Of a stretch of DNA of 64,000 bases, positions 9,443-35,171 are shown piece by piece (the stretch's first letter is position 1; every line of letters starts with the position of its first letter). The notes under the pieces were generated by a model. It did not search any database. It had not been told where the DNA came from and saw only the letters and a program-made list of their open reading frames with translations. The stretch covers positions 248,001 to 312,000 of the forward strand of contig NZ_JAPMLT010000001.1 in NCBI RefSeq assembly GCF_026410385.1. The letters run 5' to 3'. Position numbers and translations under genes: made by a program. The stretch is from Tumebacillus lacus (lineage in GTDB: Bacteria > Bacillota > Bacilli > Tumebacillales > Tumebacillaceae).

Positions 9443-9535
9443 CTTCAAACGGAATGGGCAAACTTGTCGAAAGGCAAGGACGCAAAGCCGTGGGTCTTCG
9501 GATCGAGAGATCGATCAAAGATTGCCAGGTTGCAA
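9443..9535 (+). ncRNA. Cyclic-di-GMP-I (GEMM) riboswitch aptamer
   Basis: The stretch has the GEMM-I core. GGGCAAAC leads a stem capped by a GAAA tetraloop (CTTGTC-GAAA-GGCAAG). The near-invariant GGACGCAAAGCC follows, then a second hairpin and the tetraloop-receptor strand GCCAGGTTGC. Order and spacing match the class. The aptamer lies about 90 bases before the start codon of the DUF5667 gene, with a terminator hairpin between. That is the arrangement for transcription control by c-di-GMP. The direction of control (on or off) cannot be decided by eye. Confidence 0.9.
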
Positions 9536-9561
9536 CGGAGCGGTGCCGGACGGCATCGCAA

Positions 9562-34655: not shown

Positions 34656-34747
34656 GGAAGACTGTCAACTCCTTCTGTATGTATGCGCTTATTGTATCGC
34701 ATCTGGACATGCTTATGCTATCATGACTTGGAGCGAGGTGAAACGGA

Positions 34748-35053
34748 ATGATCTCGATTGACATCAGCATGTATGCCACGGAGCGCATCGAACAGATGCT
34801 GGCCGAGTCCGGCCGGGATGATCTGGGCGTGCGTGTTCGCATCACCCCTGGTTGAGGCGGTCCCGAGTACAGGTTGGCTCTGGATGAGCCGACGCCGCAA
34901 GATGAGCGGGTGGAGGAGGAGGGCATCCTGTTCCTCTTTGACCCGAAGGCTGCCACGTTGATCGGCGACCTCGTCATCGATTACGATGACGGTCCCGGCT
35001 TTACGCTGTATGACGAGTCCTTGGGCGGCGGCCCGAGCAACACCGATTGCTAA
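34748..35053 (+). CDS. HesB/IscA-like protein with in-frame UGA, putative selenoprotein
   Basis: The ATG at 34748 (GAGGTG upstream) opens a frame of 101 codons read through one TGA at 34853-34855 (codon 36). Across the TGA the product reads 'RVRITPG-U-GGPEYRLALDEP', then 'GILFLFDPKAATLIGDLVIDY', a HesB/IscA (A-type Fe-S carrier) domain. In homologues the UGA position is a Cys in a GCGGP-like motif. HesB-like proteins are a known bacterial selenoprotein family with Sec at this point. A SECIS-like hairpin starts 18 bases after the UGA. MnmH in the same window supports selenium use. Otherwise the gene would be a pseudogene with one nonsense codon. Confidence 0.72.
34873..34893 (+). promoter_or_regulatory. 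Bacterial SECIS-like hairpin inside the HesB-like gene
   Basis: GTTGGCTC pairs with GAGCCGAC (one G-U) around the 5-base loop UGGAU. The loop starts 25 bases after the UGA and has a G among its first two positions. Both properties fit the described bacterial SECIS consensus recognised by SelB. Confidence 0.65.
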
Positions 35054-35077
35054 GGAGAATGCCTGCTGGAAAGTCCG

Positions 35078-35113
35078 AAGCTCTGATCGACATTCGATCA
35101 GAGCTTTTTTTCG
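35078..35113 (+). terminator. Intrinsic terminator after HesB-like gene
   Basis: A 12-bp perfect stem AAGCTCTGATCG and complement, 5-base loop, T7 tail. Its placement 24 bases after the TAA at 35051-35053 supports translation to that stop. Confidence 0.92.
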
Positions 35114-35171
35114 ATTTCGCATACATCACGGAGCAATTTGGAAAAATGATGAATGGAAGGAGTGTGCCACC

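Follow-up and report, generated by a model that had tools for sequence, protein, structure and literature searches.

Catalogues of HesB-like selenoproteins date back to 2005-2006 (PMC1242214, PMC1794560), and by 2016 their number had reached 90 in 86 organisms (PMC5029168); the preliminary description of the locus studied here, which had called them an established selenoprotein family, is in line with these reports. The HesB-like selenoprotein of Methanococcus maripaludis was identified in 2024 by mutagenesis and 75Se labelling (PMC11097638). Its disruption mutant still fixes nitrogen and its function is not clear (PMC11097638), and the selenoprotein members of A-type iron-sulphur proteins in general have no known function yet (PMC11097638, PMC13188914).

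Here we describe a gene located in a 64,000-nucleotide stretch of Tumebacillus DNA (the whole stretch analysed is called the window below), which very probably encodes a HesB/IscA-type selenoprotein whose UGA codon is decoded as selenocysteine (Sec). With the HesB-like selenoproteins reported so far (PMC1794560; PMC5029168; PMC13188914) it has in common a HesB/IscA domain whose first ligand-Cys column holds the predicted Sec, a UGGP motif (UxGP type), a bSECIS-like hairpin just downstream and a Sec pathway in the genome. Judging from this motif, the product is a putative HesB-like selenoprotein in the broad sense. The A-type carriers IscA and ErpA have three ligand cysteines, the last two of which form a C-terminal CxC, whereas the clade of the window protein lacks the CxC and has one nearly invariant last Cys instead. 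The protein also stays beneath the NCBI subfamily models: it reaches 28.1 bits with TIGR01911 (HesB_rel_seleno; curated cut-off 66.35) and 43.8 bits with the best-scoring model, NF038090 (IscA_HesB_Se; cut-off 85), to which the whole domain aligns. The paralogues and relatives tested are likewise below both cut-offs, and the ErpA (33.2 bits vs a cut-off of 117) and IscA models are both far from reached. As the scores are below the subfamily cut-offs and the CxC is absent, we regard the window clade as a divergent one of a known kind, so far found only in its family. The M. maripaludis protein (PMC11097638) is similarly a distant relative of IscA with an unclear function, although it is archaeal and is likened here by description.

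Reading frame and conservation of the TGA codon

The candidate gene lies at 34748-35053 on the plus strand, where the frame, a Pfam match, orthologues and differences by codon position all point to a HesB/IscA-like (Fe-S_biosyn) protein of 101 residues. Its 101-codon frame starts with ATG at 34748, ends with TAA at 35051-35053 and contains a single in-frame TGA (34853-34855), which is codon 36 and would place Sec36 in the motif PGUGGP. A Shine-Dalgarno-like stretch, GCGAGGTG, is read directly at 34733-34740 (plus strand), 7 to 8 bases 5' of the ATG, and a GAGGTG-type stretch precedes several of the orthologues as well. When the TGA is translated as Cys, the product scores 27.8 bits with Pfam Fe-S_biosyn (PF01521), above the gathering score of 26.3; an AlphaFold2 model from a two-row alignment was of no use (mean pLDDT 37.5). 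On the same strand, at 35077-35107, there is an intrinsic-terminator-like hairpin of 14 pairs followed by a T run, which is a consensus match only, about 0.9 such sites being expected per shuffle. The preliminary description had thus been right about an ATG with a ribosome site opening a frame with one TGA, and about this frame remaining open through a HesB-like domain to a TAA, while the terminator it had placed 24 bases past the stop is present as the consensus match just mentioned. A gene caller taking the UGA as a stop would miss this gene or cut its product at residue 35.

It had also been proposed that column 36 should hold Cys or Sec in relatives, and this is what we found. In a phmmer search residues 3-79 align to E. 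coli IscA (PDB 1s98, 1r94), with residue 36 falling on the cysteine of 'TSGCSGMAY', so that the window protein would have Sec for Cys35 of IscA; Cys likewise occupies the column of U36 in the TGA-free homologues. Each of the six further genomes examined from the family contains an orthologue with 57-64% identity, which has exactly one TGA, always at the same codon (seven of seven with the window gene); in the tree these six orthologues and the window gene form one clade with a support of 100/99. TGA-containing HesB-like genes were found in 14/14 genomes in an order-wide search, and a class-wide sample contained further ones in another family.

Past the TGA, the 21 pairs taken together differ 212 times at the first codon position, 162 times at the second and 565 times at the third, and dN is lower than dS downstream of the TGA in all 21 pairs, with dS near saturation in many of them. 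This pattern indicates purifying selection on the part after the TGA, no less strict than that upstream. We also observed that six of the seven orthologues (L024-L029) end with Cys-UGA, the window gene ending with TAA, so that in those short genes UGA would serve as both Sec codon and stop.

A SECIS-like hairpin downstream of the TGA

The bSECIS-like hairpin anticipated earlier, with a UGGAU loop 25 bases from the UGA and a G in the first two loop positions, is present on the plus strand at 34873-34893, where direct reading, folding, covariation and RNAalifold agree. Its stem of 8 pairs is made of 34873-34880 and 34886-34893 and starts 18 nt after the UGA; the loop (34881-34885, TGGAT on the DNA) starts 25 nt after it. 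Published rules for bSECIS elements name a loop of 3-9 nt, an upper stem of 4-16 bp, a G within the loop's first two positions and a distance of 16-37 nt from the UGA (PMC13188914), and the 5-nt loop, 8 bp, G at position 2 and 25 nt seen here agree with every one of them. Taken as a single sequence the hairpin is only moderately unusual, as a stem of this length arose in 460 of 20000 synonymous recodings (2.3%). For a 60-nt fragment containing the UGA a different fold is preferred (single-sequence folding z -1.34), and the 52 nt after the UGA fold into the SECIS-like hairpin.

Stronger evidence comes from comparison. Across 21 aligned TGA-containing homologues, 88% of cells are paired, versus 16-44% when the partners are slid, and changes on both sides that keep the pairing occur in 16 cells versus 5.5 in shuffles, none of 500 shuffles being as high; kinship inflates such covariation counts, but the slid controls preserve it. 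Compensatory exchanges in the stem are of the G-C/A-U and C-G/U-A kinds, and the variants GGCUC/GAGCC, GACUC/GAGUC and GGUUC/GAACC also alter the amino acids encoded (ALDEP, TLDES, VLDEP). RNAalifold recovers the same hairpin unaided, with six core pairs. Since the hairpin overlies the conserved coding motif LALDEP, the protein accounts for part of the hairpin's conservation. The leucine codon (or its counterpart) is CUG in all the TGA genes listed, versus CUU, UUG, CUC or UUU in Cys-coding homologues. In one orthologue (L029) the stem includes a single C-A mismatch. Across the 4.18 Mb genome the 16-mer TGGCTCTGGATGAGCC has just two exact matches, one in the window gene and one in a TGA-containing paralogue.

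Selenocysteine decoding genes and the reading of the UGA

The genome of the window (26 contigs) was searched for selA, selB, selC and selD, as the preliminary description had advised, and all four were found. SelA scores 614 bits, SelB 389 bits with 578 of 581 positions covered, and SelD 414 bits; tRNA-Sec (selC) was detected with a tca anticodon. The selD gene (L020, G000:C21) adjoins selA, about 50 bases after it, and has an in-frame TGA of its own, in the motif GUGCK, which we take to be the usual Sec position in Sec-containing SelD. Among order relatives, selA is present in 13 of the 13 tested, and all 13 have TGA-containing HesB-like genes. As selA, selB, tRNA-Sec and the TGA-bearing selD are all there, the main objection to a selenoprotein, an absence of selA, selB or selC, fails. 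As far as the genes can tell, the organism would decode UGA as Sec. The papers searched include no relevant one connecting Tumebacillus with selenocysteine.

It might be argued that the TGA is a nonsense mutation in a decaying pseudogene or a misread TGC or TGG, TGA being a stop in the standard bacterial code. This is the sole point in favour of that idea, and it is difficult to reconcile with the identical codon in seven separately sequenced species genomes and in paralogous clades, or with dN below dS past the TGA, so that we give it practically no credence. Another possibility is that a Trp, Cys or near-cognate tRNA reads through the UGA without selenium, yielding a short and a long product. 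Indeed, a 35-residue truncated product would always be made too, and decoding as Sec in vivo is something that we infer. However, the genome has the full Sec pathway, the UGA stands exactly at the redox/ligand Cys column, a covarying SECIS-like hairpin follows it, and UGA is the gene's own stop in six of seven orthologues, which means that it is not a sense codon in general. Read-through of this kind seems very improbable to us. Taken together, the Sec genes, the kept TGA, selection, the Cys column and the covarying hairpin make a pseudogene, a sequencing error and general UGA read-through unlikely.

One may also ask whether it is the opposite strand that codes, where there is a long open frame (34721-35122, 133 aa), or whether the region is non-coding. 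Homology, purifying selection and third-position bias all favour the plus frame (homologues were sought for the plus frame only), and a frame like the one on the minus strand is presumably a usual by-product of G+C-rich coding DNA; we find this reading scarcely credible.

We thus return to a HesB/IscA-type selenoprotein. Decoding of the UGA at 34853 as Sec is inferred from the conservation of this codon together with the known bacterial pathway, whose genes are present. SelA and SelD would charge tRNA-Sec, and SelB would bring it to the ribosome and bind the hairpin that begins 18 nt past the UGA; the codon would then be decoded as Sec, and translation would run on to the TAA. Of the three ligand cysteines known from A-type iron-sulphur carriers, the first would be replaced by Sec in this protein, where the single C-terminal Cys would also stand for the CxC of the carriers. 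What the protein does is suggested by homology only. The likeliest role is a joint one for the selenolate and the terminal Cys, as metal/iron-sulphur ligands or as a redox pair; our guess, drawing on the known ligand set of IscA, is that they could serve as iron, zinc or cluster ligands, or form a selenenylsulphide. Gene order, compared by eye between the window and the Tumebacillus avium orthologue, has no evident shared neighbours, and so context gives no functional clue.

Paralogues and spread in the lineage

Three TGA-containing HesB/IscA-like genes are present in the genome of the window, the other two being L003 (G000:C22, 1498-1785), which has one in-frame TGA and the same 16-mer hairpin, and L002 (G000:C22, about 1497-1803), also with one in-frame TGA. 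L002 is less sure, because its tree branch of 2.35 marks it as very divergent and because it has an interrupted hairpin. Compared with the 90 HesB-like selenoproteins in 86 organisms (PMC5029168), the Bacilli of the window clade have three HesB/IscA-like TGA genes per genome, and this number is the more unusual point. In one relative (G010) we noted four HesB/IscA-like loci, each having a single TGA. A search for plasmids found nothing.

The gene is a solid but ordinary addition, good annotation rather than a surprise, as such selenoproteins are known already: comparative evidence supports it, and the HesB-like selenoproteins gain a divergent clade beneath the NCBI model cut-offs. The lineage is rich in such genes. 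A wider proposal would be that paralogues of A-type carriers multiplied as selenoproteins in this order of Bacilli (three to four TGA genes in each genome, including, in one genus, the CGC-bearing ErpA/IscA-type gene), all with near-identical UGGAU SECIS elements, and that the window clade, with Sec36 and a single terminal Cys, represents a new functional type of carrier or redox protein; we consider this rather doubtful as it stands.

The ErpA/IscA-type gene with the CGC motif has Cys in the genome of the window (L001, G000:C3), whereas a relative within the order (L058, G009:C32) has TGA, with GCACTGGATCGTGCC instead of GCACTCGACCGTGCA. The pair represents a natural Sec/Cys exchange in which a SECIS element may have been gained or have decayed, and such an exchange could be used to probe the role of selenium in A-type iron-sulphur proteins. 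Elsewhere in the window, a c-di-GMP-I riboswitch was detected at 9447-9537 on the plus strand (73.5 bits).
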